Shown here: positions 42,271 through 64,000 of the stretch, one piece after another | Layout of the letters: every line of letters begins with the position of its first letter | Position numbering within the stretch: the first letter of the stretch is position 1 | The notes under the pieces: generated by a model | What the model saw: only the letters and a program-made list of their open reading frames with translations | Databases searched by the model: none | Told to the model about the DNA's origin: nothing | Program-made: the position numbers and the translations under genes | Assembly (NCBI GenBank): GCA_004293915.1 | Contig: RDZG01000054.1 | Location: 62,001-126,000, forward strand | Reading direction: 5' to 3' | Source: Bacteroidota bacterium | GTDB taxonomy: Bacteria; Bacteroidota; Bacteroidia; Cytophagales; UBA9547 | DNA: 64,000 nucleotides

Positions 42271-42560
42271 ATTCCAAGTTTTTGAAACTTGGAAGGTCTC
42301 CTTTGCCGATGTAAACCAACCAAAAGATACCATCCCTCCTTTGCAATAGCGAGGAGGGATGGTATCTTTACGAAAACCTGCGGTAGTCACTAGACATTAG
42401 CCACCAGACCTTCCAAGTTTTAAAAACTTGGAAGGTCTCCTTTGCCGATGTAAACCAACCAAAAGATACCATCCCTCCTTTGCATCAGCGAGGAGGGATG
42501 GTATCTTTACGAAAACCTGCGGTAGCCGCTATACCTTCCAAGTTTTTAAAACTTGGAATG
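42271..42560. repeat. REP-like palindrome block: two 139-bp tandem units plus a half unit
   Basis: Each unit has hairpin type 1 (TTCCAAG...CTTGGAA; 42272-42294, 42407-42437 and a third copy 42534-42560). A spacer with TTTGCCGATGTAAACCAACC follows. Hairpin type 2 has 17-bp arms of AAAGATACCATCCCTCC and their complement (42323-42369 and 42462-42508). The unit closes with ACGAAAACCTGCGGTAG. The unit offset is exactly 139 bases. The block sits directly upstream of a REP-associated transposase gene, as in classical REP/RAYT systems. Confidence 0.9.
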
Positions 42561-42588
42561 TTTTTTTAATTTTTACTACTTTCGTTCT

Positions 42589-43248
42589 ATGAAAGAAAAT
42601 TTCTATCCTGCGTTGCTCGAAAACGAGTTTTATCACATCTACAACCGTGGCAACAACCGTGATATTATTTTTTTTAAGCACGAAAACTACGCCTATTTTT
42701 TGCGAAAATATGACGAATATCTTTCCCCTTTTTTAGAAACATACTGTTACTGTTTGCTGCCCAATCATTTTCATTTGTTGGTCAGGGTAAAATCAAGCGA
42801 GGATGTAGTTACTGCGGTTGAAAGGATTCCATCCCTCTCTCGCTTTCGTCAAGGAGGGATGGAATCCTTAGTTTCGTCTATCATCAGCGAGCAGTTCAGA
42901 CGCTTTTTTATCTCTTATTCCCAATCCATCAACAAACAGCAATCTCGTGTGGGCAGTTTATTCCAGAAAAATTTTAAAAGAAAACATATCGATAGTGAAA
43001 GCTATTTTACATCTGTAGTGCATTATATTCATGCCAATCCACAATCGCATGGCATTTGTGAAGATTACAAATTATATCCCCATAGTTCTTATGGAAGAAT
43101 ATTAATTGATAAGCCAACAAAACTTATGAAAAATGAAATTTTGGAATGGTTTGGTGGAAAGGAAGGGTATCTGAAATTTCATGAAGCTAATTTGAATGAT
43201 GTAAAAGAAAGAAGTATGTATGAGATTGAGGATTCTGCGACATCGTAG
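42589..43248 (+). CDS. REP-associated tyrosine transposase (RAYT, TnpA_REP, Y1 HUH)
   Basis: This 219-residue Y1 transposase has the N-terminal NEFYHIYNRGNNRDIIFF, the HUH metal motif in LLPNHFHLLVRV and the catalytic Tyr region SYFTSVVHYIHANPQSHGI. The conserved block FFISYSQSINKQQSRVGSLFQKNFKRK lies between. RAYTs cut and join single-stranded REP hairpins and are thought to spread them through the genome. I chose ATG 42589; the frame is open further upstream (42553) but enters a hairpin. Residues about 70-105 contain an in-frame REP-like palindrome. It is flanked by type 1 hairpins on both sides (42534-42560 and 43265-43291). Confidence 0.9.
   Translation: MKENFYPALLENEFYHIYNRGNNRDIIFFKHENYAYFLRKYDEYLSPFLETYCYCLLPNHFHLLVRVKSSEDVVTAVERIPSLSRFRQGGMESLVSSIISEQFRRFFISYSQSINKQQSRVGSLFQKNFKRKHIDSESYFTSVVHYIHANPQSHGICEDYKLYPHSSYGRILIDKPTKLMKNEILEWFGGKEGYLKFHEANLNDVKERSMYEIEDSATS
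42822..42869. repeat. REP-like palindrome inside the RAYT coding sequence
   Basis: The arms AAGGATTCCATCCCTC (42822-42837) and its exact complement (42854-42869) are separated by 16 bases. Read on the minus strand it matches hairpin type 2 of the upstream block: CCATCCCTCCTT, a loop with AGCGAG, then AGGGATGG. It is translated as part of the protein (RIPSLSRFRQGGMES) without breaking the frame. Confidence 0.85.
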
Positions 43249-43410: not shown

Positions 43411-46400
43411 ATGAAAAAAATATTATTTACACTTATTTTTGGGGCTTGGGCATTGATGTCGCATGGTGCTACTCGGACATATACTGGGCCTACTAATGGA
43501 AATTGGCATGTAGCAAGTTACTGGAGTGGTGGAATAGCACCAACTATTTTAGATGATGTGATCATCCCAACAGGGAAAATTGTAAATATTGCCACAGGCT
43601 CTGTACCAGTTTCTCAATGTTTAAATCTTACTGTAAGTGGTACTGGTACATTAAACATACCAGGTACAAAATCTATTACCATTGCAGGAGATATGTTTGG
43701 CAACGGCACAATTGCCACTACTGCTTTTATTGGAGTATTTGGGAGTATTTATTTAAGAGGCGATAACAACCATACAGGAATATTTACACACAATAATTTT
43801 GGTTACTTTTATTATGATGGTGCTGGTTTTCAAAATATGAGATGCATAAACTACGGCAATCTTTACATTGCAGGAAGTGGTACAAAAACAATAAGCAATT
43901 ACTCTCTCAATATAGTAACTGTTGCTAACGATTTGAATGTGGCAAGTGGCTCAACTTTTCAAATTTTTGGAAGTGCAACTGCGAAAGATTTTTTAGTTTC
44001 TGGTGTAGCAAACATTAATGGGATAGTTAATTTTGGTTCTGGTAACGGGAATTCTGTTTCTGTTGTAGGTGCTTTTTTGGGAAACGGAAGCGTTAATATG
44101 GGATTGGCTACAAGTTATTTAACTTTAAGAGGAGCTACTAATCCATTTGCTGGCACACTAAGTTCTTCGGCAACATCAATTGTGATATATGACCGTGTTG
44201 GAGATCAAACTGTATTTGGAAGTAATGATTATCCTTTGTTAAACATATCTGGAGGAGGTGTAAAAACAATTACAGGTACTTTAATTTGCACTGCTTTTAG
44301 TTTGCAAAATTCTACAGTTCAGTTAGGAGCAATGGCAACAGCATCTGGCACTAATTGGAGTTTTTGGAATCAGGGGACTACAGCACTTACAAGTGGAGAA
44401 TTTCAATTTCTAACACCAGCCAAACGAGTATTTTTGCAAGGGAATGTAAATGGTGCTGCCAATATAAATATGACAAGTGGCAATACAATTGCACATTACT
44501 TGAAATTTGGAGGTAATGGCAATTCTATAACTCCAACCCAAATATTACCTACTGCCACTACAGGCTGTTTAAATACGATTGAATATTCGGGTCCGAGTAC
44601 TCAACCCGTACTCAATAGAGATTATTGCAAACTCATCATCTCGGAATTAGGAGTTAAATCTATGACTGGTTCTGGTTTAACCTATGTATATAATGACATG
44701 GTAATTGGAAGTAATGCTACATTTGATGCAGGTGATTTACAAACATTTAGAACTGCTAATCTAACAGTAGGGGGTACTTTTCAAGATGTAACGGGTGTGC
44801 TATCTGATGAAATATATTTATTGGGTGGTAATGTACATATTTTACCCACAGGTAGAATGATTGGAAATGGACAAACTCGCTTTTGGTTTGCAAATAATGT
44901 ATTAAATCAAGGTATTATTAGCATCTCTGGGGCAGGTAGTTACGATCAGATGGGTGGTGGCGTAAGAACTTTTAATAATCAAGGAACTGTATCATTCAAC
45001 AGAGAGGTACGTGTAGATAATAATTTTACCCTTATTGGTAATCCTTTTTATTTTGGAGATAATGTAACTATTAATGGAGCAAGTAATTCATTAACGATTT
45101 CAACCACAGGAATAAATACAATTGTGGGGATTTTAAATGGAGCTACTGCTTTGAATGGTTTTGTACACTTAGCAAATTCGCATACAAGATGTATGTCTTC
45201 AATTCCAATGGCGACAGGAAGGTTCAATGTTTCAGCTACTGGAAACACTTTTGAATACGCAGGAAGTTTAGTTAATCACACCATCAATAGCTCCGCAGTA
45301 TATGCGAATCTCCTTATCAGTGGAGGGGTGCGAAAAGTGGCTCAATCTTCTTTTAGAGTGCTTGAAAATTGCAGCATTGTTGGTACAAACACCGATTTTT
45401 TATTGGGAATAATCCCGAGTTCAGTGGCAGTTGATATTGGTTCTGATTTGGTTATTGGCAATAGTTCTCGCCTAACTTTTAGTCCAAACGCTACAGTTAT
45501 CATGAATCTGCGAGGAGAACTTCTAGGCAATTCGACCAACTCTACCATTAGTTTTGCAGGAATAAATCCACACAATTTATATGTTTATGGTCAAAACAAT
45601 TCGCTTCAATCAATGATGGGAACGGCTTCTAATACTGTATCTAGTGTGCATTTTGTTTCCAATGATTATAGCCAAAACATTCCACGTGTTAATTACCCAA
45701 ATTTGGTGCTTTCAAGCACGGGTGTTACTAATACTAAAATATTTTCAACAGGAGTAACTAACCCTGTCATAAGTGGAAATTTAACTATGTTTAATACTGT
45801 TTTTGATATTGCTAATACCGATGTTACGCTTTCAAACAATGCTTCTACTGTGATTGGTATTGGTGGCTTTGGCATTGCCAATATGATAAAAACTTCTGGT
45901 ACTGGTAATTTGATAAAAAGATATGCAACAGCAATTTCGGGAGCACAGGAGTTTCTTTTTCCAATTGGCTTAACAGGTTATTCTCCATTAGTAATGAGAA
46001 CCACTGGAACTACCTCTTTTGCTGCAGGCTCTGTTATTTTGGCTTCAGTAAAAAGAAGTATTGCCCCCAATTTGAGAGATGGTACTTACGCACTAAACAG
46101 ATATTGGAATACAAGCTCAATTGGTCTTAGTGCAATAAATGCTACATTAACTGGTTCGTATGTTGATGCTGATTTAAGGGGAATTGAGACCAGTTATGTT
46201 GGAGGATGGTGGAATAATACTTCATGGCAAATTCAACAACCTATTAATTCGGTTGCAAACACAGTTAGTGCCACTTTTACTAGTGCAACTGCTCTCAACG
46301 GAAATCTTACCGCTGCCTACCCCGCTGCTTTCAACTCTTCTATTTCTCTCGGCAATATTGCTACTCCAAGCTTTTGCCAAGGGCAAGTAGTTACTGTTCC

Positions 46401-49400
46401 TGCTCAAAGTTTTGGGACTGCATTTGTGGGTGGAAATCAATTTATCATAGAGGTTTCTACAACGGTTGGTTTTACATCTTTTATATATTCTTTAGGTACA
46501 ATTTCCGCTACCAGTATAGGAGCTTCGGGTATTTCTACCATCATACCTACAACTTTGCCTGCAAGCAATTTCTATAGACTAAGAATAAGAGCCACTAATC
46601 CTTTTTATATTAGTAGTTTAGCTGGCTATGTGTTAACTGTGAACGGAAGTCCGAGTTTTATATCTTCTGTAAATACTAGTATTTGTAGAGATGGTGTAAG
46701 CACCATTTCATTAACTCCAACAGGTGGAACGTCTTGGATAGTAGTGCCAAGCAATTTAGGAACATTTGTTGGTGATGTTTTTACTCCTACTTTGTTTGAA
46801 GGCAATGCAACTACAACTGGTACAATATTTCGTGCTGTAACTGGCGGATGCACAAGTCCAGGTTTGAGCCTTGCTTTTAAAGATATTCCAAATAATGCAA
46901 CATTAGGTAGTTTATTATGTACTAGTCAAACTTTAAATTTAATAACAAGTGCAACCGGAGGTGTTTGGACAACCACAAGTACGCCAGTGTTAAATTTTGG
47001 TTCAATAGCTAGTAATGTTTATACTCCAGGAGTTGGTAACACAGTTAATGTAAATGTAAGTGTAAGTTATATCAAAGCAGGTTGCAAAAGTGCTGAGATT
47101 ATATCTACAGTTTTTCCTAATACTACTATTACATCACAACCAGTCGGAGATGTAGAAGGAATTGGTGGAAATCCTATATTTTCGGTTGTGGCAGCTGGCA
47201 AAGGTCTTACTTACGCTTGGCAAGAAGGAACTCCTTTTGTTTTTTTAAGTCCCAATGCTACCTATACAGGTACAAATACAAACACATTAAGCATTTCAAA
47301 TGTACCCTTATCGCTCAATAACAAACAATACCGAGTTGTGATTACAGGTGCTTGTGGACCAAACATTACCTCCACAGGTGCAGTCCTAACTGTTATCAAC
47401 GTAAGTGCTGCCATGTATCGCTCAGTTAATTCTGGAAATTGGACTACAGCAGGTATTTGGCAAGTTTCTAATAATGGCGGAATTTCTTGGGGAACTACTA
47501 TTAATACACCAGGAACTTTAGTTCCACAAGATTTGGTGAGTATTACAGGAGGTACAAATGTGCAAATTACGGGTGCTTTGGTTAATAAATTATTACATTC
47601 CCTTACCATTTCGGGCAATTTGCAACACAATGGCGTAGATAGTTTGCGGATTGCGGGAGCCACAAACGTGATGGCAACTGGAACGCTTAACGGCTTAAAT
47701 ACATTTTCAAGCATAGTTTTTAATGGACCTTTGATAAATCGAGGTGAGGTTATGTCAAGCTCAAATTCTTTGTTTGTATTCAGAAATGGGATTGTAAATA
47801 ATGGTATAAATCCAAGTACGGGTTCAATGGTATTAAATGGAAATAATACTTTTGGGCTCAATAATCAAACCATATCGGGCACAGCTGCTTTTGTACTTTT
47901 TGTAAATGGATTAGTAAGTATCAATAGTGGTATAGAAGTAACACAAACCATTTCTCCGGTTCAAATAACTGGAAATCTTAACGGTGGAGGAGCAAATTCA
48001 AAATATATACTAGGAAGTAATAAACAACTCTTTTATGCTGGTAATGCCGCACCCATGAACACGGGTCAGCTTGTGGCAAATGCTACGGGTTCAAACGTAT
48101 ATTATGCTTCAAGCTCAGGAACGCAAATCATGAAAGCTACTAATTATTATGATTTGACTTTCAATAACAATGCAATAAAAGAGTTTACAGGTAACATAAA
48201 TGTGGTAAATGATTTTACAGCTGTGAACTCCACAAATGGGGCTTTGCGATTTAGTAGCATCTCTGGAAGCATGCTTTCTGTGGCTGGAATTACCAATCTA
48301 CCAGGAATGACAAGCATTGATATGTCTTTCGGAAATCAACCTCACCAACTCATCCTCTCAGGACCTGTTACTAACATTTCTGGTACGTTCACAAAAGGCT
48401 CAGGCACTGTTATTTACAACGGAACTATGGCTCAAAACGTAATGCCATTTAATTATAATAATTTGATTATTGATAAGGCAAGCACAAAAACACAAGTAGG
48501 AAGTATTTCAGTAACTGGATTTACGGTAACTGGCGGTGCTACTTTAAATGCAAGTAGTAATCAAATAACAGGAAACACAGTAACAGGTTCAATGTTATTA
48601 GATGCCAATACAACTTTAATTTTGGGAAATACAACATCTGGTGCAAATATTACTATGCCAGGATTTAATAGCTTGAATACAATGGTTGATTTAACTAGCA
48701 CTATTATTTTCCAAAGCAACACCAACCAATCTGCTCAAATCCTTAATGCTCCATTTGGAAATTTAATTTTGAGAGGTGGAGGAATAAAAACAGGAGGTTT
48801 TTCTAATGTAAATGGCAATTTGACTGTTGAAAATAATACAGATTATAGAACGAGCAATATTAATTTCTCTGGAAAATTACTTACTAACAATGGATTACTA
48901 AGCTATACCGCTCCTACTGCTAATTTTTATTTTATTGGAGATGGGTTTGCAGCTCAAACAATTGCAGGAACAGCTATTTCTAATTTTGCTAATATTTTTG
49001 TTGATATTAACACAAATATTGACTTAAAACAATCTATATCAGTTACAGGTACATTGGGATTTAACGATGATGGAAACTATATTTTAAATAATAATAACAT
49101 CATACTTTCTGGCAATAATGCCACCATAGTAGGAGCAAATGCCAATCGATGTATTTCTTCGAACGGATTAATTTCTGGCGGAGCGGTTGTTTTGCAAAAA
49201 GGAAATATAGCTACGGATTACGATAAAGTAATACTCCCATTTGCCTTGAACTCAGATGCCGATTTTGTGCAATACAGAATTTCAAACATAGGTGGAGGAA
49301 CAACCAATAGCATTAGTCTGAAACCATTAGCCACTACTATTGGTACAAATTATAATAAATATGGCTTTTGGGCAGATAGAAATGGAACAGGTGGTGCTAC

Positions 49401-52400
49401 TTCATTTACAGTTGGTGTATCCGTGCCAGGTACTTCTTGGGTAGGAAATCCAACCAATATTTTGGCAAATGGCGTCCTACAACCGACAGGTGTAGTTAAT
49501 CAGCCAAATAATACTTATTCTTCCAATCAAATTAATCCTACATTTCCAAGCACCTATTTTGCTGCTGGAAATACACCTGTGGCTAAGAAATATCGCTCTA
49601 TTTCTAGTGGTGCTTGGAATTTTACAGGCAGATGGGAACAAAGCTCGGACGGCACAAACTGGATACCTGCCACTACTAGCCCAGGGATGAGTATCGCTGG
49701 TGATGAAGTAGAAATCAATAATTTTGTAATTATTGATAATGCTATTCCGTATTCAATTTCTACAGTAGGAATAAATGCAGGGGCTACTATGCGATGCGGA
49801 GCTGTTACTGCTAGAAACTTAACCGTAACTGGGAATTTCACTTGTGCAGGAACACTGGATATGACTACAGGTTTTCCTCATAACTTGTATTTGGGAGGAT
49901 TGAATAACAGTATGAGTGGCACTTTATCAGCAAGTGCAGGAAGCACTATACACTACAATGCCAATACAGCACAAACGGTTTTTGTTTCTAATGGATACGA
50001 AAACCTAAATATAAGTGGACTTGGAGAGAAAACCATAAATGCAGATTTTAGAGTAAATAATCTTGTAGTGGCTCAAAATGCTACTTTTACAGGATTGAGT
50101 AATGGGAATCAATCTGCCCAAATTTCAGGTACTTCTGATATTTCTGGAACTTTAAAATTTAAAACACAAGCAGGAGGAGATGGTTGGAATATAGCATTTA
50201 GAGAAGTAGTACAAACTTATCCTACAGGAAAGTTGGTATTGGATAATGCAGGAGATGGAATAGGACTTGATTTTCAAGGAGATTTTATAAACAATGGACA
50301 ATATGTAGATATTACCTCTTCAGCAGACAATTATATCACATTCTCAAACACAAATCCTAAAAGTGTAGTAGCTAATCAACCCATCAATTTTGGGACTGCT
50401 ACAGTAGATGTAACTACTGATACTGAGTTTTCAGGCACTTCATCATTTACCATCTCAAATACATTTACTGTTTCATCGGGAAGTACACTTACTAACCAAT
50501 CTACTATTAATGCTACCACCCTTATCGGTTTAGGAAATTTTGTAAATGCTACTAATGCCACATTTATATACAAAGGGGCTACCATTCCATTGACATATCT
50601 TGATTTTTCTGCTTCAAACAATTTAGCAGTTTTTAATAATACTAATAATTCACAAACTATTCCAGCTATCAATTTTTATAATCTTTCTGTAGTTGGTGTA
50701 GGTTCAAATGGAATGACCTTAGAAGCTGGAGTTATTAATGTAGATGGCAACTTGTATAATGAAACACAAGCTGTTCAGCCTTTGGGAATCTTATCATCAA
50801 ATACTACGCTCAAAATCAGAGGCGATATTGTTGGATCTGGCGTTTTAGCAGTTGCCAATGCTATTACAAATACAGTAATCGAAGTGAGAGGAAACTATAG
50901 TGGTTCAAATAATTTTTCAGTGGGAAATACGAGCGACAATCAATTTATATATGCTGGTTCAGGCAATCAAATTGTAAATGCCAGTAACTATGCTACATTA
51001 GAAGTAAAAAACGGGGGAGATAAAACTGTAAATAGTGCTATCGATATCTATAAAGCACTTTCGCTAAGTGGTGCAAATTTAGTTTTGAATGGGTCAACTA
51101 CTTTAAATTTGTTTAATGGCTCTGTTAATATTGGTGGTTCTGTTCCTTTTGGATTTGGGAATGCGGTGGTGGCGAGTACAAGTGCTAATGCGTTAATTAA
51201 GAATGGCTCGGTAATATCTGATTTTATAAATTTTGTTTTTCCATTGTCTACACCTACTGTATATACTCCACTTACAGTTACAAGTTTCAATTATCCTGTT
51301 GGTAATCAATTTCTTAGTTATGCAGTTACGGACTATACCTCGGCTTATTTAGACTATATTAAACACCAATATTTTATAAACCCATCTTCTGTTTTTAATA
51401 ATTTCAATTTCACTATTGAAGTTACTCCTTCTTCTTCAGTAGGTAATGAAGGTAATTTGCATCTTTTTGATGGGGTTGGTCTCAATGATTTAGGTTTAGT
51501 TAGCAATCCTATTGCAAATAAATTGAGTCATACTATATTATTAAACATGGGAGCTTCTCCATTTACCTTTAATAGCACCACCAACAAACTCTATCGTTCT
51601 GTAACTTCCACCCCTTTCAATTGGACAGCCTCTAACACCAATTGGGAAGAAAGTGCTGATAATGGAGGAACTTGGTCTCCAGCAGCTCAAACCCCTGGTG
51701 CAACGGGTGGTGAAATTTATTCTGTCATTATATCTCCAACCCATACTGTAACAAATAGATATACCAATGCTGCTCCTCAAAATTTATCCATTTCGGGTGG
51801 GGCTTTGTTGGATTTGGCAAATAATGCTTTTTCGGTGGCGGGACAAACTTTTGTAGATGGAGAATTAAGGGCAGGAGGTACTGCCGGGGAAAATATAATA
51901 TTAGGAAAAACTAGCATTGGCTCATTAGGGAAAATACAAGGAGGCACAGATAATGCATTCAATATTACTGATTATTTAGTAAATGATGGGTTGTTTTTCA
52001 ATCCAAGTAATGATGTTGAATTAAATGCACTTTCTGAATTTACAATATCAGGTATAGGACAGAATATTTTTAATGGAGTAAGATTGATGAATGGAACTGC
52101 CAATGTCCTTAATCAAGCACAAGCGTTGACTGTTACAGGTGCGTTAACTGATGACGGAGGAAGTGGGATTGTTTGGAAAAACGATGATAACTCATCTTTT
52201 ACATATAAAGGTTCTGGTACATTATGGTCAGGTACAGGTATCTTCGATGCCACTTCAACAGGCAATACCTTTGAATATGCATTAAATGGAAATCAAACTA
52301 TCCAACCTATTACCTATTTTAACTTAGCTGTTTCTGGAACTGGCACAAAATCTATAACTGCAAACACAACCGCTTTAGGCGATGTGTTGGGTGCTGGTAC

Positions 52401-53187
52401 TCTTGCAGTTGGAAATAATATTACACTTTTTTTGGCAGGAAATTTCGATCACACAGGCACACTTACACCTGCTGTTGGCTCAATTATAGATTATTTTGGT
52501 TCTAACACACAAAATGTAAAACCCACAACTTATGCCAATATGCGAGTGAGAGGCGGTGGAGATAAAATTTTGATAGGTAATGTTACTATTGGAGATGGCA
52601 CTAATTCTTCATCTTTAAATATGGCTGGGGCTAAAGTTGTGTTAGGAGATAATAACCTGATAATAAATAATGCAAGTGGCATTGCTGAAATAACACCTTA
52701 TTCCACCGCAAATTATGTAGAAACCAACGGGCTGGGTTCTTTAGGTAGAAAAGGTCCCGGTGCGATTATTCCATTATATCCCATTGGTTCAAATGGCTTT
52801 TTAGCAAGTGTTACTGGTGCATCTTTTAATATCGCACCTACTAATGGCACTCTATTTTTCCGTACAGAAGCCACAGAAGCTCCTTTGCAAATTAATTCAT
52901 TGTCTTCGTTAAAACGCCATTGGGTGAGTACATGTGTTGGTTGTACTATTTCCAGCGGTACTTATACTTTTAAATATGACGATGCCGATATTCAAGGTTT
53001 GGAAACAAATTACAAATCTGCATATAAAACGAGTGTTGCAAACTGGGTAGTTGGAACACCAGGAGTAACCCCAGCCTCAAACGAAATTAGTATTGTGAAT
53101 CCAGGTGCTACCAGTGTGATGCTTTTTACCGCTGGTCCAATTTTTTTAGAAGCATTGCAACTTTTGGTGATTGGTCAAACAGTTTAG
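43411..53187 (+). CDS. giant repeat adhesin, first part up to the frameshift (3258 residues)
   Basis: It starts with a signal peptide (KKILFTLIFGAWALMSHGA). Long stretches of Asn/Thr/Ser/Gly-rich beta-strand repeats follow, in which phrases like GNGNSI..GTLSASAGS and YNNLxISGxGTKT recur. They are punctuated by a Trp-containing module (YRSxxSGNWxxxxxWExSxDGG) at about residues 25, 1335, 2060 and 2727. Ig-like segments lie at about residues 980-1330, one shared with the cupredoxin gene. The last 13 codons after a T7-A tract are unlike the family and end in TAG. The -1 frame continues the conserved module at that point, so this stop is probably not the true end. No T9SS domain is present in this part. 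It is expected to be exported and displayed on the surface if the frame is restored. Confidence 0.85.
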   Translation: MKKILFTLIFGAWALMSHGATRTYTGPTNGNWHVASYWSGGIAPTILDDVIIPTGKIVNIATGSVPVSQCLNLTVSGTGTLNIPGTKSITIAGDMFGNGTIATTAFIGVFGSIYLRGDNNHTGIFTHNNFGYFYYDGAGFQNMRCINYGNLYIAGSGTKTISNYSLNIVTVANDLNVASGSTFQIFGSATAKDFLVSGVANINGIVNFGSGNGNSVSVVGAFLGNGSVNMGLATSYLTLRGATNPFAGTLSSSATSIVIYDRVGDQTVFGSNDYPLLNISGGGVKTITGTLICTAFSLQNSTVQLGAMATASGTNWSFWNQGTTALTSGEFQFLTPAKRVFLQGNVNGAANINMTSGNTIAHYLKFGGNGNSITPTQILPTATTGCLNTIEYSGPSTQPVLNRDYCKLIISELGVKSMTGSGLTYVYNDMVIGSNATFDAGDLQTFRTANLTVGGTFQDVTGVLSDEIYLLGGNVHILPTGRMIGNGQTRFWFANNVLNQGIISISGAGSYDQMGGGVRTFNNQGTVSFNREVRVDNNFTLIGNPFYFGDNVTINGASNSLTISTTGINTIVGILNGATALNGFVHLANSHTRCMSSIPMATGRFNVSATGNTFEYAGSLVNHTINSSAVYANLLISGGVRKVAQSSFRVLENCSIVGTNTDFLLGIIPSSVAVDIGSDLVIGNSSRLTFSPNATVIMNLRGELLGNSTNSTISFAGINPHNLYVYGQNNSLQSMMGTASNTVSSVHFVSNDYSQNIPRVNYPNLVLSSTGVTNTKIFSTGVTNPVISGNLTMFNTVFDIANTDVTLSNNASTVIGIGGFGIANMIKTSGTGNLIKRYATAISGAQEFLFPIGLTGYSPLVMRTTGTTSFAAGSVILASVKRSIAPNLRDGTYALNRYWNTSSIGLSAINATLTGSYVDADLRGIETSYVGGWWNNTSWQIQQPINSVANTVSATFTSATALNGNLTAAYPAAFNSSISLGNIATPSFCQGQVVTVPAQSFGTAFVGGNQFIIEVSTTVGFTSFIYSLGTISATSIGASGISTIIPTTLPASNFYRLRIRATNPFYISSLAGYVLTVNGSPSFISSVNTSICRDGVSTISLTPTGGTSWIVVPSNLGTFVGDVFTPTLFEGNATTTGTIFRAVTGGCTSPGLSLAFKDIPNNATLGSLLCTSQTLNLITSATGGVWTTTSTPVLNFGSIASNVYTPGVGNTVNVNVSVSYIKAGCKSAEIISTVFPNTTITSQPVGDVEGIGGNPIFSVVAAGKGLTYAWQEGTPFVFLSPNATYTGTNTNTLSISNVPLSLNNKQYRVVITGACGPNITSTGAVLTVINVSAAMYRSVNSGNWTTAGIWQVSNNGGISWGTTINTPGTLVPQDLVSITGGTNVQITGALVNKLLHSLTISGNLQHNGVDSLRIAGATNVMATGTLNGLNTFSSIVFNGPLINRGEVMSSSNSLFVFRNGIVNNGINPSTGSMVLNGNNTFGLNNQTISGTAAFVLFVNGLVSINSGIEVTQTISPVQITGNLNGGGANSKYILGSNKQLFYAGNAAPMNTGQLVANATGSNVYYASSSGTQIMKATNYYDLTFNNNAIKEFTGNINVVNDFTAVNSTNGALRFSSISGSMLSVAGITNLPGMTSIDMSFGNQPHQLILSGPVTNISGTFTKGSGTVIYNGTMAQNVMPFNYNNLIIDKASTKTQVGSISVTGFTVTGGATLNASSNQITGNTVTGSMLLDANTTLILGNTTSGANITMPGFNSLNTMVDLTSTIIFQSNTNQSAQILNAPFGNLILRGGGIKTGGFSNVNGNLTVENNTDYRTSNINFSGKLLTNNGLLSYTAPTANFYFIGDGFAAQTIAGTAISNFANIFVDINTNIDLKQSISVTGTLGFNDDGNYILNNNNIILSGNNATIVGANANRCISSNGLISGGAVVLQKGNIATDYDKVILPFALNSDADFVQYRISNIGGGTTNSISLKPLATTIGTNYNKYGFWADRNGTGGATSFTVGVSVPGTSWVGNPTNILANGVLQPTGVVNQPNNTYSSNQINPTFPSTYFAAGNTPVAKKYRSISSGAWNFTGRWEQSSDGTNWIPATTSPGMSIAGDEVEINNFVIIDNAIPYSISTVGINAGATMRCGAVTARNLTVTGNFTCAGTLDMTTGFPHNLYLGGLNNSMSGTLSASAGSTIHYNANTAQTVFVSNGYENLNISGLGEKTINADFRVNNLVVAQNATFTGLSNGNQSAQISGTSDISGTLKFKTQAGGDGWNIAFREVVQTYPTGKLVLDNAGDGIGLDFQGDFINNGQYVDITSSADNYITFSNTNPKSVVANQPINFGTATVDVTTDTEFSGTSSFTISNTFTVSSGSTLTNQSTINATTLIGLGNFVNATNATFIYKGATIPLTYLDFSASNNLAVFNNTNNSQTIPAINFYNLSVVGVGSNGMTLEAGVINVDGNLYNETQAVQPLGILSSNTTLKIRGDIVGSGVLAVANAITNTVIEVRGNYSGSNNFSVGNTSDNQFIYAGSGNQIVNASNYATLEVKNGGDKTVNSAIDIYKALSLSGANLVLNGSTTLNLFNGSVNIGGSVPFGFGNAVVASTSANALIKNGSVISDFINFVFPLSTPTVYTPLTVTSFNYPVGNQFLSYAVTDYTSAYLDYIKHQYFINPSSVFNNFNFTIEVTPSSSVGNEGNLHLFDGVGLNDLGLVSNPIANKLSHTILLNMGASPFTFNSTTNKLYRSVTSTPFNWTASNTNWEESADNGGTWSPAAQTPGATGGEIYSVIISPTHTVTNRYTNAAPQNLSISGGALLDLANNAFSVAGQTFVDGELRAGGTAGENIILGKTSIGSLGKIQGGTDNAFNITDYLVNDGLFFNPSNDVELNALSEFTISGIGQNIFNGVRLMNGTANVLNQAQALTVTGALTDDGGSGIVWKNDDNSSFTYKGSGTLWSGTGIFDATSTGNTFEYALNGNQTIQPITYFNLAVSGTGTKSITANTTALGDVLGAGTLAVGNNITLFLAGNFDHTGTLTPAVGSIIDYFGSNTQNVKPTTYANMRVRGGGDKILIGNVTIGDGTNSSSLNMAGAKVVLGDNNLIINNASGIAEITPYSTANYVETNGLGSLGRKGPGAIIPLYPIGSNGFLASVTGASFNIAPTNGTLFFRTEATEAPLQINSLSSLKRHWVSTCVGCTISSGTYTFKYDDADIQGLETNYKSAYKTSVANWVVGTPGVTPASNEISIVNPGATSVMLFTAGPIFLEALQLLVIGQTV
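53141..53148 (+). other. frame change at a T7-A tract (U UUU UUA heptamer)
   Basis: Seven T residues (53141-53147) are followed by A. In the incoming frame the codons are ATT TTT TTA, so 53142-53148 reads T TTT TTA, the heptamer used for -1 frameshifting in HIV-1 gag-pol. Shifting -1 gives TTT AGA AGC ATT and the residues FFRSIATFGDWSN, matching the adhesin's own FRSIATGNWND module at 56,223. One extra T in the DNA would have the same effect. No clear downstream stimulatory hairpin is visible. Confidence 0.85.
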
Positions 53188-56100
53188 GAGGGATTTGGGA
53201 ATCTTCTCCAGATGGTATTAATGGGTGGACTTCAGTTCCTGTTGGAGATTATCCTGGAAAATATTTACCTGGCAATGTAGTAGATATTGATGCTGGAACT
53301 ATTGTAACTTTAGATGTAACACCACTTGAATTAGGAAATGTAACGGTAAGTGGTACATTAAATTCTAATACCAACACAAAAATTACTTTTGGACAAAAAA
53401 TGTCGAGTATTGGCACTGGTACTGTTGCATTAAATGGTGATGCTGAATTCAAAAATGGAATAATCTATAATTCTACAAATAGTTTTTCCTTAAATCGAAA
53501 TACTTTATTTACAACTAATAATCAAACCATTAGTGGTATTGGCACTTCTAATTTCAGTACTGGCGCAAGTACGATTGCTGGCATTATAGTAACCAACCAA
53601 TTAAATCCAATTTGGGTTATGACTGGTTCAGTTACGGGTACAGATGTTAATTCAACTTTGGAAAACGATAAATTATTGTCCATTAGATTTGCAGCAGAAC
53701 CTATGGCAATAGGAAATTTAGTTTCTACCTCCACAAGTTCTATTTTATGGTACGAAAATACAGGGATTAGAACCATAAAAGGGGGGACATATTATACTAT
53801 TATTCTTGCTGGAATAGGTACAAAAACGTTAAACGGAGATGTAACAACAAACATAATTGGAATAAATGGTGCGTTGAGTTTTGGAAATTCGGTTGCTCGT
53901 ACTTTGAGCGTTACAGGTACACTTACCGTTAGCAATACCATTGATATGTCTGGCACGCTTGCTCATCAATTGTATATCTCTGCAAATGCGATTAACTCTT
54001 TAGCAGGGTTAAATTTATTGGCGGGAAGTGGAACGGTGCATTACAACAGAGCTAGCATACAAAATATTCTACCATTTACTTACAATAATCTCATTTTAAT
54101 TAATTCTCAAAAAAATCTACTTAACAGCACCACCATCACTGGGAACTTAAATATAGCCACCAATGCCACCCTTTCTTGTTCAAATGTCGCCAATCAAAAT
54201 ATATTATTTGCTTTAGGAAATTCCACCATCAATGGTATGTTAGATTTTGGAACTACTGTGCATACCATGGCTTTTGGTAGCGATGTTGGAATTCAAAATT
54301 TAGTTGGAAACGGTACCATCCGCATGAAAGGTTCAGGTTTGGCTCATGTTTGGGATAATAAACTCGATAACAACAATTTTACAGGAACCATAGATGCTGA
54401 TTTGCCAAGTGTGGTGGCTTTTACAAAAGATAATATGGTCTTTGGACAACCTTTGCCATCCAAAAATGGCATAAATGCTTATCCAAATGTATTGATGTCT
54501 GGACAAAGCCCTAAACAACAAACTTTTTTGAGTTTAATCAATGGTGATTTGACAGTAACAGGTGCAACTTTCAATACAGGTTCTGCAAATGGCGAAATTT
54601 TGACTGTAGTCGGAAATACTTTATTGGATGGTTCTACCGCAATACTAAGTTCACTAAACGCATCAAGTCCGCAAATATTTGTTTTCAAAGGCGATTTTGA
54701 AATTAAAAACGATGCTAGATTAAATATTAGTTTAACAATTGGCAACAAAGCCGTGATGTACGGAGCAAATAATGTAGCTACAAATGGTAATTTAAGTGCT
54801 GACTGCAATAACACCTTAGAATATGCACTTTTGGGTAACCAACGTATGTTTGATTTTGGAAATGCAAATGCAATAACTCATCAATTATTGATTTCTGGTT
54901 CAGGCACCAAAACTGTAACTTCTGCTATAAATGTATGCGGTTTGAGTATTACTGGCACTTCTACCTTATACACAAGCGACAAACAAATTACGGGTACAGT
55001 CACAGAAAAAATGCTGATGGAAAGCGGCACTAGTTTGATATTGGGAAACCCTGCAAATGCCACAGCTGTTTTATTTCCAACTAATTTTACAAGACCCAAT
55101 ATAAACCTTGCTCCAGCCAGTACAGTAGTTTATCAATCTTTTATCAATCAAAATATAAGTGCAGTGCCTACCTATGGAAATCTGTATATAGATGGCTCTG
55201 GAATTGTAAAAAGTTTAGATGGCAATACAACTGTTTTGGGTAGCCTATGGATAAAAAATGGACATTTAGATTTCAATACTTCTGTTTCTAATCTTGATGT
55301 GATAGGGGCAAGTACGGTAAATGGTGTATTGCAATTTACAGGAGCTACTACCCAACTGGTTGCAGTTACGTTTAATAGCGATTTATTAGTTACTAACCAA
55401 TTGAATTTTGCCAACAATTTTGCACACAATGTAAATGTGCTAGGTGATTTTAATTGTAGCAATACATTAAATATGACTGGTGTTGCAACTGCTCCGTATA
55501 GTTTGAATTTGTTTGGAGCTAATAATACAATCAATCAATCAAATTTTTCAACCAATCCTAATGGGACTGTAGCTTATAGAGGAACAATCACTCAAAATAT
55601 AGCCCAATTAAATACAAATCCTTATGCCAATTTGGTAGTTAGTGGAGGAGGTATCAAAAGTATTTTGAATGATACCAAAGCTAATACCTTGCATTTGGAT
55701 GGAGCAGTAGTGCAAATGGTTTCTCCAAAACTTTTGTATGTAAATTCTATTACGGGTTCAGTCGTTTATGATGTCAATAATATGGTCAGTGCAGATCCCT
55801 CTGGCGTTGGAGGAACCCTTGTGAAATTAGGCACTGCCAATAATCAATTCAAAGATTTTGTATTCCCTATTGGCGTAAATGGAATTTATTCTTCAGTTTC
55901 TATTGTGGGAATAAATGCATCAAGTTATAATGGCACAGGAGAAATTAGGATAAAACCCATAGATACAATTTTGGGGTCAAATTATATGAGCAGAATGTTT
56001 GAAATTTCTAGTGCTAGTATCGTAGGAATTACAGATTTTAAAACGCAATTTTTTGTAGATCCAAGTCAAGTAAATGGCACACCAAATTTAGTAAAAATAA

Positions 56101-59100
56101 ATGGAATAACATTGCCAAATAGCTTTGTAGATGGTTCTAGTGCAAGTTTTGGATATATTAACGCAGCTAATAATTCCTCTATTAACGGTACTTGGTTTGC
56201 AACTGCAAACCCAATTCCTACCTTTTTCCGCTCTATCGCTACAGGAAACTGGAACGACCCTACCAAATGGGAAGGTTCGGCTGACGGCATAAGCTATTAT
56301 AGTTTAGTGAGTGGGCAATATCCTGGAGCTAGTGCAAGTGGGGATATGGTAAGTATCAGTGGAGCAACCACTATTACTGGAAATGTAAGTCCTTTGGAAT
56401 TAGCCTCGATAACGGTAAGTGGAACTTGGAATATAGGAGCTAATAATTACACCATTGCAGGACAAACATTGATTAATTCGGGTGGTGGTTACATTACTGG
56501 AATTGCAGCTCCAAGAACTTATTTTATTGATAAAGTATTTATGAGTGCAGGTAGTCAATTTTTGACTGGAGCAAATGCCTATCAAGAATTTCAAAACGGA
56601 TTTGTGAATAATACTTCATTTCCTGCTGATTTTAGCTTGAATGGACACACTAAGTTTGCATTAAATAATCAAACAATTTCAGGTTCATTAGCTAACTATA
56701 CTTTTTGCTACGGTTTATTAGAAGTAGATAATGATGTAACAGTCGAGAGCCAATCTAGGTTTGTTGATTTGGCTGCAAATACTTCTTTGATAGGTTTAAA
56801 TGCGAATTCTACTTGGAGATTAGGTTCAAATAATAATGCAATTTATACAAGTAGTAGTGTTGAGTTAATGAAAGGCGGTATTTTGAACGCTACGTTGCCA
56901 AGCACATTTGTTGCCTATTTAGGTAATAATCAAAAAATAAAAAACACAAACTATTATACTATTCAAATTGGTAATCCTGGTACTAAAATTATTGAAGGAC
57001 AAGTAAATGCTACTTTTTTAGGAAATATTTCTGGATTTGCTACACTTTCGTTTTCGGGGGCACAGCTTTCTGTATTATCCGTAACAAGTGATTTTTATCT
57101 TAATTATAACACCAATGGAGCGGATATGTCTGGTGGTGGATTTGCACATCGATTATATATTGGAGGAGCTACAAATACTATTTCTGGTGCTTTTACTGCT
57201 GGAAACGGAAATATTATTTATAACGGTACGGGCAGTCAGGAAATCATTGATTTAGATTATAATAATCTCGAAGTATCTGGGAATAGCACCAAATCTCTAA
57301 CAGGAAACACCTCCATATCAGGTACTTTGAATATGAATGGCGGAGTTTTAGACCTTGGAATTTATAGTTTAACTACTTCTGGAATTACGCCTACTACCGT
57401 GTATTCTCCTCTGAACATGATACGGATGAGTGGTACTACTACTTTGGGTATTTTGTGCTTACGAAATCCTATTTCTGGTTTTGAAATCGTATATCCTGTA
57501 GGTACCGCAAACGACTATACTCCTGTTTTCTTTAGCACACTTAATTCTAGTTTGATTTCTACGGAAAAGTCAGTTCGTATTCAAATTGTAACATTAACAG
57601 GAGGCACTAATAGGATAAACAGAGCCTTCAATATCAGTACAAATGGCTTAGAACCTGCTAATAATTTTACTGCGGAATTTATTTTTGTACCAAGTGATAT
57701 TGTAGGTACTCCAAATAATGTAAATAGGTATAGCCCTACTCAAAATGCCATTGCTAGTGGTGTGGTAGATTTTGGCTTATTCAAATATACTGTAAATGAA
57801 ACTGCGAGTGGAGCTTTGTCCGTTTCTGGACTTTGGGTAGCAGAAAGCAATCCTGTTCCCACCATGCCACTAGGCAATAGAGGTATTTATTTTGATGGAG
57901 TAGATGATTATGTTTCATGTGGAAGCTCAATAAATACGGTTCTTCATTCTACTGCATTTACAGTTGAGGCGTGGGTGAAACTTCCCAAAGTAAATGCTGA
58001 ATATATTATTTTATCTAACAGAACAACTTCGAATAATGGGCTTTCAGTAAGTATAGGAAGTGGTCAGCTATCATTTTCTTTTGGGAATGTTGCTGTTGTA
58101 TCTTCTCCAAGTGTTTTAACAGATGTTAATAAATGGTATCATGTAGCAGTGAGTTATGGAGCTGGAAATGTTAATTTTTATGTTGATGGAGTCTTGGTTC
58201 ATAATTCAACAATTAGTCCTATAAATCCATCAAATATTGGTGCAACTTTAGGCAGAAGTGAATTTTTATCGGTCTACTCTAATTTTCAAGCAGACGAAAT
58301 CAAAATATTCAACACCGCTCGCACTGCATCAGAAATACGAGCAGATATGAGCAGTACAGCTACAGGTACGGCTGGCATGGTAGCATATTGGAACTTTGAA
58401 GACGATGCAGCGGTTGGAAATCAAACTATTGCTACCGATGTGACAGCCAATACCAATGATGGAACTTTAACAAACGGTCCACTTTGGGCTTTGCGTGTAA
58501 CCGACAACACCGATAACGGAGGTGCAGGGCTTGGTTCTCTTCGCCAAGCGATTACAGATGCAAACTCAGATAATGACAAAGATTATATTGATTTCAGTAT
58601 GCCAAGTGGAACGCAAACCATACAGCCAACCACAACCTATAATTTAACACAACCTGTTTTTATTGATGGATTTTCACAATTAAATACCATTGCAGGAGAA
58701 AATTCTATACCAAATTCAAATTCTTTTGGACTGCCAATAAATGCCAAATTGAATGTTGTTATTTCTGGTCCTGCACCTGGAAATGCCACATGTTTTGATT
58801 TGGGTAATACATCAAGTGGAAGTATTTTTAAAGGGTTGGTCGTGAACCACTTTGGCTTAAATGGAAGTACAGCAGCTTTCAATTTAGCTTCAGATTCCAA
58901 CAATCATACAATTTCAGGATGCTTTTTAGGTGTAAACAGAGATGGAACTGCTGTAACTGCGGCAGAACTTAATAATGTGAGTTTGTTGGCCCTTTCAACC
59001 AGTGCATTAGTTCTTGGTGGGAATTCAGATGCAGACCGGAACTTGGTTTCTTCTGGTGAATTGTTTTGGAATGGCAGTACGAATAATACCATTACAGGAA

Positions 59101-62100
59101 ATTACTTTGGTACTAATGCAGCGGGCGACACTTATCTGTCAAATGTTATAATTACATCCATTTGGGGTAATTCACCCATGTTGTTTCAAAATAATGTGAT
59201 TAGTGGTACTTTGTTGATAGAATCAGCCATCTCAAATACCAAAATTATTAATAATAGGTTTGGCACAAAAGCTGACGGTACTGGTGTAGTTACAAATGGT
59301 GCACAAGCCATTCAGATAGGAAATACAAGTCAATCGAGAGGTTCTTCCAATGTGTTAATTGCAAATAACATCATTGCGAATAAATCAACTGGTGTAATTG
59401 TAGATGGAAATCTTTCTTATCAAAGTTTGAATAATTCCATTACTGGTAACAATATTTATGATAACACTATCGTGGGTATATTTCTGCAAGGAACGGGAAA
59501 CAACAACAAACCTACTCCACTTATCACTTCGGCTAACCCAGGCTTAATTTCAGGTACTTGCGTAGCAGGAGATGTGGTAGAAGTATTTAACGACACTCCA
59601 CAGAGTGGCACTACCAACCAAGGTAGAACATTCTTAGGTAGAGCCACTACGACAGGTACAAACTGGTCGTTTGTTGGTATATTTACAGTTGGTAATCGCA
59701 TAACAGCTACTGCTACCGATGCTACTAATGGTACAAGTGCATTTAGTGTGGCTGCTTTAGTTTCTAATCCACCTGTTCCTACCATGCCACTAGGCAACAG
59801 AGGCATTTATTTTGATGGGGTAAATGATGAAATATCTGCTCCAGCTCCTACTACAAACCTTGATAATATTACTTTAGAAGCTTGGGTAAAAATGTCGCCA
59901 GATTATTTAGGAGGGCAAATCGTTAGAGTAGGACAAACAGGAGGTGGATATGCAATTTTCCATTCACCAGTATCGATAGAGCTTAGTGGAGTTGGATATT
60001 TATTTACTGGTCATACTTTGACTCCAAATCAGTGGACTCATATAGCTATTGTGCGTAATGCATCTGTTTGGAATGTATTTGTAAATGGAATCTTAGAACC
60101 TATCACATCTACTGGAATTCCGTCAAATTCAACTCCAAATGCTATTAATGGTAATTTTTTAAATATTGGGGGACGAAACAACGGCATTTATAAATTCTTC
60201 AAAGGTCAAGTTGATGAGGTACGTTCGTTTGATACGCCACGTACACAAGCACAAATACAAGCGGATATGTCTTCTACTTTACCTAACGGTGCCGTGGGTT
60301 ACTGGAATTTTGATGAAACGACAGGAAATACTTTGTTAAATGCAGGTACAGTTGGAGCACCATCTAATGGAACATTTATAGACCAACCACTTCGTGCACT
60401 CCGTGTAACCAACAATTCCGACAACGGAGGTGCAGGACTAGGCTCTCTTCGCCAAGCCATCATTGATGCCAATACAGATGCAGATAAAGATTATATTGAT
60501 TTTAGTTTGCCTAGCGGAACGCAAACTATACAGCCAACCACAACTTATAATTTAACACAACCTGTATTAATTGATGGATTTTCGCAGTTAAATACCCTTG
60601 CAGGAGAAAATTCTATTCCAAATTCAAATGCATTTGGGCTGCCAATAAATGCCAAATTGAATGTGGTAATAAATGGAGTTAGTGCTGGAACTAATAATGG
60701 ATTTTTATTCGCTGGAGATTTTGCTGTGTTGAAGGGTTTGGTAATTAATGGATTTTCTTCAAGTTCAGCTGTGGAATTTAACACAGCATTGCCTGATGTA
60801 AGATACAATCAAATTTCAGGGTGTTTTATAGGGACAAATAGAGAAGGCAACATTGCTGTTACAAATAGCTTAGCCATAAGGGCAACTAGCACTACTGCTA
60901 ATACTAGAGCTTTAAACACTATAGGAGGTTCAAATATTGAAGATTTTAATTTAATTTCAGGAAATCAAACTGCATTACCTGATTTAAACGGTTTTGGAAC
61001 AGGATTAATCATGCATAATTATATTGGCACAAATGCACAAGGTACAGCTGCTTTATCTAATACAATGGCTCAACCATCAATCTCAATTATTTGGTCGCTC
61101 AATACAACCATTACAAGTAATGTTATAAGTGGAAACGCAGGTGGCGGTATTACAATTGGTTCAAATACAAGTAGTAATATAATTATCACTAACAATAGAA
61201 TTGGAACTCTAGCCGATGGCACAGGAACTCTTCCAAATGCCGGAAATGGAATAGTTATTGACGCAAATAATTCAAATAAAATTGGCGGAAATGGAGCAAT
61301 GGATGGCAATATAATTGCGAATAATGTTGGTTATGGTATTGTTATAAATAATTCTAATACTAATAATGAAATATTTGGAAATAGTATTTTTAATAATACA
61401 AATGGTGCAATTCTTTTATCCAATAACGGTAACAACAACAAGTCAGCTCCCATTATTTCTTCTGCTTTCCCAACCCTCATTTCAGGAACTTGCACGGCTG
61501 GTGATATTGTAGAAGTATTTTACGATTCTCCACAAAGTGGCACAACAGACCAAGGACGAGTGTTTTTGGGTACTGCTGTTACCGTTGGCACAAATTGGAG
61601 TTTTGCAGGAGTGTTTACAGTTACAAGTAGAATTACCGCCACTGCAACAGATGGTACAAGTGGTACAAGTGCATTTAGTGTGGCAGCTATAGTAATCCCA
61701 ACTACACCTGGAGAAGCCTTGGCTTTTGATGGCGCAAACGATTATGTCCAAACCAATAGCTTGTGGCTTACTCTGATTAGCGACTTTACCTTAGAAGCCA
61801 GTGTGTTATGGAAAGGTAATACAGGTTCTAATCAAGCCATTATCTACAATGGCAATGCAGGTGCAAATGGCTATGGAATTGTAATTGAGGCAGCAAGTGC
61901 TAATTCATTAAATATATTGGTAGGAGGTGTTCAATGGATTTCAACAGGTGCTGTACTTCCTATAAATGTATGGAGCAAAATAGTAGTTGTTAATACAGCT
62001 GGCATATGGACACTTTATCTAAATGGATTAGCGCAAACATTAACTCCTGTAAACAATAGTGTGCCTACTACAATATCTGGAGTTACTAACTCTTATATTG

Positions 62101-64000
62101 GTTCTGATAATACACCTGGCAGCTTTTTTAATGGTATAATAGACGAAGTACGCATTTGGGATAGAGCCCTTTGCCCAACAGAAATTACAAGCATTTCAAG
62201 TTGCGAAACGCCTTCTTTTACTAGTGGTTTAGTTGCTAAATATGATTTTAATCAAGGTTTAGGCTCTGGTTCTAACACCAGCATCAACACCCTTGCGGAT
62301 GCTAGTGGAAATAACAACACTGGTACATTGAATAATTTTAGCTTAAATGGTTCTATATCTAATTTTATTACTGGCGGTGGAGTAGTTACAGGTAGTACAT
62401 GCACATCCAATGTTTGTATTACACCAACCCTCACAGGCATATCCCTTACAGGTTCTAGCCTTTGTGCAGGTAGTACCTACAACCTAAGCATAGCAGGTAC
62501 AGGCACATTTACAGGCGGTAATATCTTTAAAATCGAACTTTCGGATTATGCCGGGAATTTTGGAGCACATACCTTCTTAACTTCATTCACAGGCATTTTA
62601 CCAAATACGGTTGTAGGTATAACTATTCCAGGAGGTGTTTTAGAAGGTACTGCCTATAATATTCGTGTGAGTTCTTCTCTACCTTCTACCCTCTACCTTT
62701 TACCAAATCTAACTATTACTAATTTAAACATCGACCTCAACTCAGGCTTAGTAGCTTACTATCCTTTTGATGGCAATGCCAACGATGCGAGTGGAAATGG
62801 AAATAATGGGGTAATTACGGGTGGGGTAGTACCAGCACCAGACAGATTTGGGAAGGTTTCGGGGTCCATGTTATTTAACGGTGGTTCAGATATTGTACGA
62901 GTTGCAAATTCAAGCTCACTTAATAGTATAAATACAGGAATAACAATATCAATGTGGCTAAAACAAACCGCTACGAATTGTGCATCAGGTTGTGATGAAA
63001 ATATCCCATCAGGTGGATATGTAATTTTAGACAAAGCTTTGTGGAATTCTTCTGATGGAGGATATCGAATTGACGCTAGGGGAACTACGAATGTTACAGG
63101 AAAAAGAACTAGATTTATATCAGGTAATGGAGCTTTACCGGTCGATCAAGAAGCAAATGTTGATTATAGTTTGAATAAGTGGGTCAATCTTACTGTCAAA
63201 TACGATTTAACCAATGTCTATTTTTATTACGATGGGCAGTTAACAAATATTGTAAATTCACCATTGGCTCAAATTTCTTCCAATACATTTGATTTGGCAA
63301 TCGGAGGAATTCAAGACGCACTTTTGAATAATACTGGTTTTAACTTCAAAGGCTCACTTGATGACATCCGTATTTACAACAGAGTACTCTCCGATGCCGA
63401 AATAGCTGCTTTATATCAAGGGTCGCAAGTTTGCGAAGGTACAGCTTTCACTCTCCAATCTCCTACTTTTGCTGGTGCAAACTATGTTTGGACAGGTGGT
63501 ACAGGTACATTGAGTAGCACTGCAATTTCAAACCCTACAGTTTTTGGTGCCTCAGCAGGTACTCAAATTTATTCTTCTACCATTACTAAAAACGGTTGTA
63601 CTGCACCACTTTACAACACTACTGTGGTGGTAAATTCATTGCCTGGTTTAGGAACTCCAGTAGTTGTTATTCAACCTTTAAAATGTGTAAATCAACAAAT
63701 CCAAGCTGTACAAGTTGGTGGGGATCCTAATGTAAGTTATACTTGGCTTGGTTCAAATTTAGAATACCACAATAATAGATTTATACCAAATACAACGTAT
63801 ATCCCAACCACATCAGGTATCGCATCTGTTAGTTTAACAGGGATAAATACGCTCACAGGTTGCTCCAATTTATGGGATAGAGGTACATACACTATTTCAG
63901 GTATTCCAACTATCACAGGAGTTGCACCAAATCCAGTCGTACCAGGCACTCCAGTTACCTTTTTTGGTACAAACTTTGTAGGTCAAATTACAAATGCTGG
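53148..64000 (+). CDS. giant adhesin, continuation after the frameshift, cut by window edge
   Basis: The frame beginning AGA at 53148 is open through 64000, about 3,617 codons. It first repeats the Trp module (FFRSIATFGDWSNSLGGIW) and more strand-repeat sequence, with another module at 56,223. Then come a LamG-like domain (57,870-58,420), a beta-helix region starting GGAGLGSLRQAITDAN (58,500-59,770), a second LamG (59,795-60,340) and a second beta-helix (60,410-61,690). A third LamG lies at 61,700-62,350, an Ig-like domain at 62,410-62,730 and a fourth LamG at 62,740-63,420. PKD/Ig-like sequence follows, and the start of an IPT/TIG domain (ITGVAPNPVVPGTPVTFFG). The C-terminus, where a T9SS sorting domain would be expected, lies beyond the window. 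Confidence 0.85.
57862..61690 (+). repeat. tandem duplication of a LamG plus beta-helix unit (about 1.92 kb)
   Basis: Unit 1 starts at about 57,862 and unit 2 at about 59,782. Both open with ACCATGCCACTAGGCAA and encode MPLGNRGIYFDGV. Both later encode NGGAGLGSLRQAI, DYIDFS, SGTQTIQPTTTYNLTQPV and IDGFSQLNT at the same offsets. They end with a shared Ig-like module (PLISG or TLISGTC, then AGDVVEVF or AGDIVEVF, then TSAFSVAA). The DNA is nearly identical in patches, pointing to a fairly recent duplication. Confidence 0.85.

Follow-up and report, generated by a model that had tools for sequence, protein, structure and literature searches.

Giant multidomain surface proteins of Bacteroidota that are secreted through the type IX secretion system (T9SS) and carry a type A sorting domain (Por_Secre_tail, PF18962) are the closest described counterparts of the gene considered here, which likewise has thousands of residues of repeated modules, after a start that looks signal-peptide-like by eye. 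Its reading frame is broken in the available assembly. In a large survey of frame transitions (PMC3711429), unclustered (singleton) transitions with an intact homologue were regarded as mostly sequencing errors, and a conserved site was required before a programmed frameshift was called. The T tracts associated with transcriptional slippage are usually longer than eight nucleotides (Tn, n>8; PMC3711429), and the slippage runs examined in another study were runs of nine (PMC1088944).

A giant gene in two frames and its uninterrupted orthologue

The window, which is the whole 64,000-nucleotide stretch of DNA that was analyzed, corresponds to positions 62001 to 126000 of contig C143 in a draft assembly (G000) of 156 contigs and 3.85 Mb. 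The features of the gene, in window coordinates, are as follows.

43411 to 53187, plus strand: 5' part of the giant gene, 3258 codons, with a signal-peptide-like MKKILFTLIFGAWALMSHGA start and a repeated YRS..W..W module
47240 to 47247, plus strand: second T7-A tract, also holding an in-frame U UUU UUA; frame 0 continues across it unchanged, which makes it an internal control
53141 to 53148, plus strand: T7-A tract with the -1 frame change, holding an in-frame U UUU UUA (53142 to 53148)
53149 to 53187, plus strand: out-of-frame tail of the 5' ORF, 13 codons, ending in TAG; the last residue that is similar to the orthologue, 3243, lies just before it
53148 to 64000 and on to 69242 (L003:5242), plus strand: rest of the gene (3' part), read in the -1 frame; 5,365 codons with the stop counted

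At the tract (A at 53140, T7 at 53141 to 53147, A at 53148), the incoming codons are ATT TTT TTA, so that U UUU UUA is in register with the incoming frame; the 13th codon past TTA is a TAG stop (53185 to 53187). The -1 frame is already open ahead of the tract and stays so up to the window end (3,617 codons counted from 53148); it continues for a further 1,746 codons, with a stop that ends at 69242 (L003:2-5242). These findings agree with a preliminary description of the region, which had reported a 3258-codon ORF ending 13 codons past T7-A, a -1 frame carrying on for another 3,617 codons, and a -1 slippery heptamer in register. A codon-usage frame scan located the switch at the tract (score, 37 to 40). 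Because this was the strongest such signal in 0.98 Mb of the genome, the frame change in the assembly is not a chance event.

Together the two parts make up a single gene of about 8,610 codons, split over two frames in the assembly. No Pfam or NCBIfam match was found in the 5' part, the N terminus of which was judged by eye to resemble a signal peptide. Pfam detected four Laminin_G_3 domains in the portion of the 3' part that lies within the window, and a Por_Secre_tail (type IX secretion sorting domain) at the C terminus, outside the window and so out of reach of the preliminary description (31 bits, cut-off 27; P0003 residues 1668-1739). On the basis of its domains, the giant protein is predicted to be a T9SS-secreted surface protein with a C-terminal sorting domain. 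All of these domains are 3' of the break, which bears out the earlier suggestion that a short form would lack the LamG region and the C-terminal sorting signal.

Directly 5' of the giant gene (42553 to 43248, plus strand) is an ORF resembling a REP-associated tyrosine transposase (53.9 bits, below the NCBIfam cut-off of 80). Positions 40458 to 42242 (plus strand) encode a 594-amino-acid protein with a C-terminal Lcl_C domain and an N terminus that resembles mosaic adhesive trimer fibre proteins, below the model cut-off.

The orthologue in G001, a MAG of the same genus (Cytophagales, JAAFIH010000039.1), runs through 9,981 codons in a single open frame without internal stops. It occupies C33:381-30302 (L014, L015) and is itself very large for a bacterial gene. 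Residues 1 to 3243 of the 5' part align with residues 15 to 3287 of the orthologue (40.6% identity), and the -1 frame resumes the alignment at orthologue residue 3289 (41.2% identity), so that the alignment stops and restarts within a few residues of the tract. At the tract position the orthologue has CCTTATTATCGCTCA, and the T tract is absent. The break falls inside a repeat module, other copies of which in the same gene read ...FFRSIATGNW or ...LYRSVASGGNW, with CCTTATTATCGC in the orthologue. Reading across the break in the -1 frame restores a normal module, AGPIF-FRSIATFGDW, beside TANPIPTFFRSIATGNW and NLYRSVASGGNW. The 60 residues preceding the break, used as a query against the genome contigs, returned no relative, and literature searches found nothing on frameshifted T9SS giant adhesins or on the sister MAG.

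The alignment bears directly on the notion that the two parts are separate, abutting genes. The downstream ORF does have an ATG at 53400, from which a second gene might start. However, orthologue similarity and coding signal continue without a gap through the 250 bases preceding this ATG, and the junction lies inside a repeat module. Since the colinear orthologue is one ORF, the two-gene reading was dropped as extremely improbable; for practical purposes it is refuted.

Past the break the gene shows no sign of decay, because identity is equal on both sides of it and the 5,365 codons downstream contain no second stop or shift. The break is thus either not real or very young. It is a singleton, and an intact homologue (G001) extends across it, as for a sequencing or assembly indel. 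The frame break at T7-A is probably a consensus or assembly indel in one continuous gene. The living cell would then encode a giant T9SS-secreted surface protein in a single gene of about 8,610 codons, and the full protein would be made without any frame switch. The draft would lack a single T here, or a somewhat longer stretch whose loss also breaks the frame.

The heptamer and the T tract

The headline of the preliminary description was that the gene switches frame at the slippery heptamer. If ribosomes were programmed to shift to the -1 frame at U UUU UUA, or if transcription slipped there, an intact gene would yield two products, one short and one long. In favor of this reading, the heptamer has the correct register, no stop interrupts the -1 frame across the junction, and shift-prone heptamers without stimulators give some -1 shifting in E. 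coli, at low frequency (PMC4066793). However, the heptamer itself is unremarkable and common in the genome: 210 in-frame copies were found in about 218,000 non-N codons of sampled long ORFs (~1 per 1,000 codons). About eight would be expected in a gene this long, and seven were observed, starting at 43989, 45396, 47241, 53142, 57014, 60155, and 64805. The frame change coincides with only one of the seven (53142), the other six being read straight through. T7-A occurs 28 times in the window compared to 41.7 expected.

The surroundings of the heptamer likewise count against recoding. The 102 nt past it (53149 to 53250) fold worse than the average shuffle (z, +1.28), in line with the earlier observation that no obvious stimulatory structure follows, and folding of the 151-nt stretch around it is average (z, +0.52). 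None of the SD-like stimulator motifs GAGG, GGAG, AGGA, GGNGG, and AGGKG (PMC4066793) was seen 6 to 17 nt upstream. Neither the heptamer nor the two-frame arrangement is conserved in the G001 orthologue, a single ORF that has no tract and needs no shift. For transcriptional slippage, T7 is below the usual tract length (n>8; PMC3711429). Furthermore, the short product would be without its secretion signal. Recoding at this site is thus highly improbable. The proposed switch at the heptamer is not supported: the site is not conserved, a stimulator is lacking, and the heptamer recurs in frame at six other places in the gene where no shift is needed.

A real, recent indel in the sequenced cells that truncates the giant protein is possible but rather unlikely. 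It might be reversible, through slipped-strand on/off switching, or the cells might simply be mutant. The short product would keep its putative signal peptide and, without the LamG region and the T9SS sorting domain, would not be displayed. Homopolymers are mutable, and the short form does lack the Por_Secre_tail. Surface proteins are also common targets of on/off switching (PMC3711429). Evidence against a switching tract is that T7 is short for a contingency tract and is not an unusually long repeat (A/T runs of exactly 7 number about 1,000 per Mb in sampled coding sequence); that the gene stays in frame at its second T7-A (47240), at a T7 at position 52427, and at its A7 tracts; and that the tract is absent from the G001 orthologue. 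The single sequence analyzed shows one tract length. It seems very unlikely that a real T7, by tract-length change or low-level slippage, sets the ratio of a short, nondisplayed form to the full 8,610-residue form displayed via the T9SS.

Frame breaks elsewhere in the draft assembly

A custom codon-usage frame-break scan was applied to samples of both genomes, with 0.98 Mb (G000) and 0.41 Mb (G001) of non-N bases. Its sensitivity was ~56%, with 99 of 176 simulated one-base losses in A/T runs recovered. There were 21 candidate frame breaks in G000 versus 7 in G001, a rate not clearly higher in G000. Conserved genes among the other G000 candidates were gatA and the following, each with an apparent out-of-frame break.

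C120 near 57395, minus strand: ABC-F ATPase
C20 near 37261, minus strand: M20 peptidase
C30 near 96010, plus strand: YfhO-like membrane protein
L045:4759, plus strand: LytS-like histidine kinase
L055:1490, plus strand: HlyD-like adaptor

At least one half had a Pfam match in four of the broken conserved genes; in the ABC-F ATPase, ABC_tran is followed by ABC_tran_Xtn in another frame. The membrane protein, which we take to be YfhO-like, had no Pfam match. Other G000 candidates include repeats and mobile-type sequence, and one arises from the edge of an N run. Frame changes were also seen inside near-identical tandem repeats of large surface-protein genes (L079:15755 in G001 and L105:14205 in G000), which could reflect real recombination or repeat misassembly.

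Results that speak against an artefact at the T7-A tract include the frame-break rate, not clearly above that of G001, and the retention of longer runs: the coding sequence of a 0.67-Mb G000 sample contained 35 T8 and 7 T9 runs, so that long T tracts are not systematically shortened in the assembly. A/T9 runs were scarcer in G000 (46 per Mb) than in G001 (150 per Mb), a difference that was kept out of the weighing.

The informative gene here is gatA. The sole gatA (TIGR00132) of the genome, at C2:32346-33655 (L107, L108), is split over two frames, with pieces that score 261 and 269 bits in different frames (cut-off, 481), and it is without about 22 codons that G001 has. The gene is whole in both G001 and G006. 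No GlnRS above the cut-off was found in the genome; the one match, of 54.7 bits over profile positions 1 to 206, was GltX-like, as would be expected for a glutamyl-tRNA synthetase. An AsnRS above the cut-off is present. Where GlnRS is absent, Gln-tRNA has to be made through GatCAB. A working GatA should therefore be required, and the gatA break most probably results from an assembly error, which indicates that the assembly contains false out-of-frame losses.

Because the only gatA of the assembly also carries an implausible break, an artefact is the best fit for the break in the giant gene as well, and we infer that this particular break is of the same false kind. The gatA break is no proof that the one at 53141 is also false, and the loss in gatA is of tens of bases rather than a single T. 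The breaks in the ABC-F ATPase and M20 peptidase genes also look like losses of tens of bases. These three breaks show that the assembly is faulty, but not through the same error. Among the three readings offered in the preliminary description, the assembly error fits best, supported by the implausible gatA break; the length-variable tract, an unlikely reading, finds no positive support, and the programmed shift finds neither conservation nor a stimulator.

Significance and comparison with known systems

If it were true, a frame switch at the tract would add a new means of controlling how one of the largest surface proteins of bacteria is displayed. As things are, the main lesson is that frame breaks occur in the draft assembly, one of them in a gene that the cell should need. 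Frame-based claims from this assembly therefore need read support. On the positive side, the gene could be followed over its full length, about 8,610 codons through to a T9SS sorting domain, with an orthologue of 9,981 codons in the same genus.

The locus resembles programmed -1 cassettes, such as dnaX and orfAB of IS3/IS911, in having an X_XXY_YYZ heptamer in register. Unlike these cassettes, it lacks both a stimulatory hairpin and an SD-like element, is not conserved, and would give a truncated product of no obvious use. It is more like the singleton frame transitions of the GeneTack class (PMC3711429), in that the break is found in one genome, an intact homologue extends across it, and there is no conserved shift site; it differs from the usual singletons in the extreme length of the gene and in the position of the break on a T7-A tract. 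The four Laminin_G_3 domains and C-terminal Por_Secre_tail are features shared with the giant T9SS surface proteins of Bacteroidota. Unlike in those proteins, the frame is interrupted once in the assembly, whereas that of the G001 orthologue is uninterrupted.
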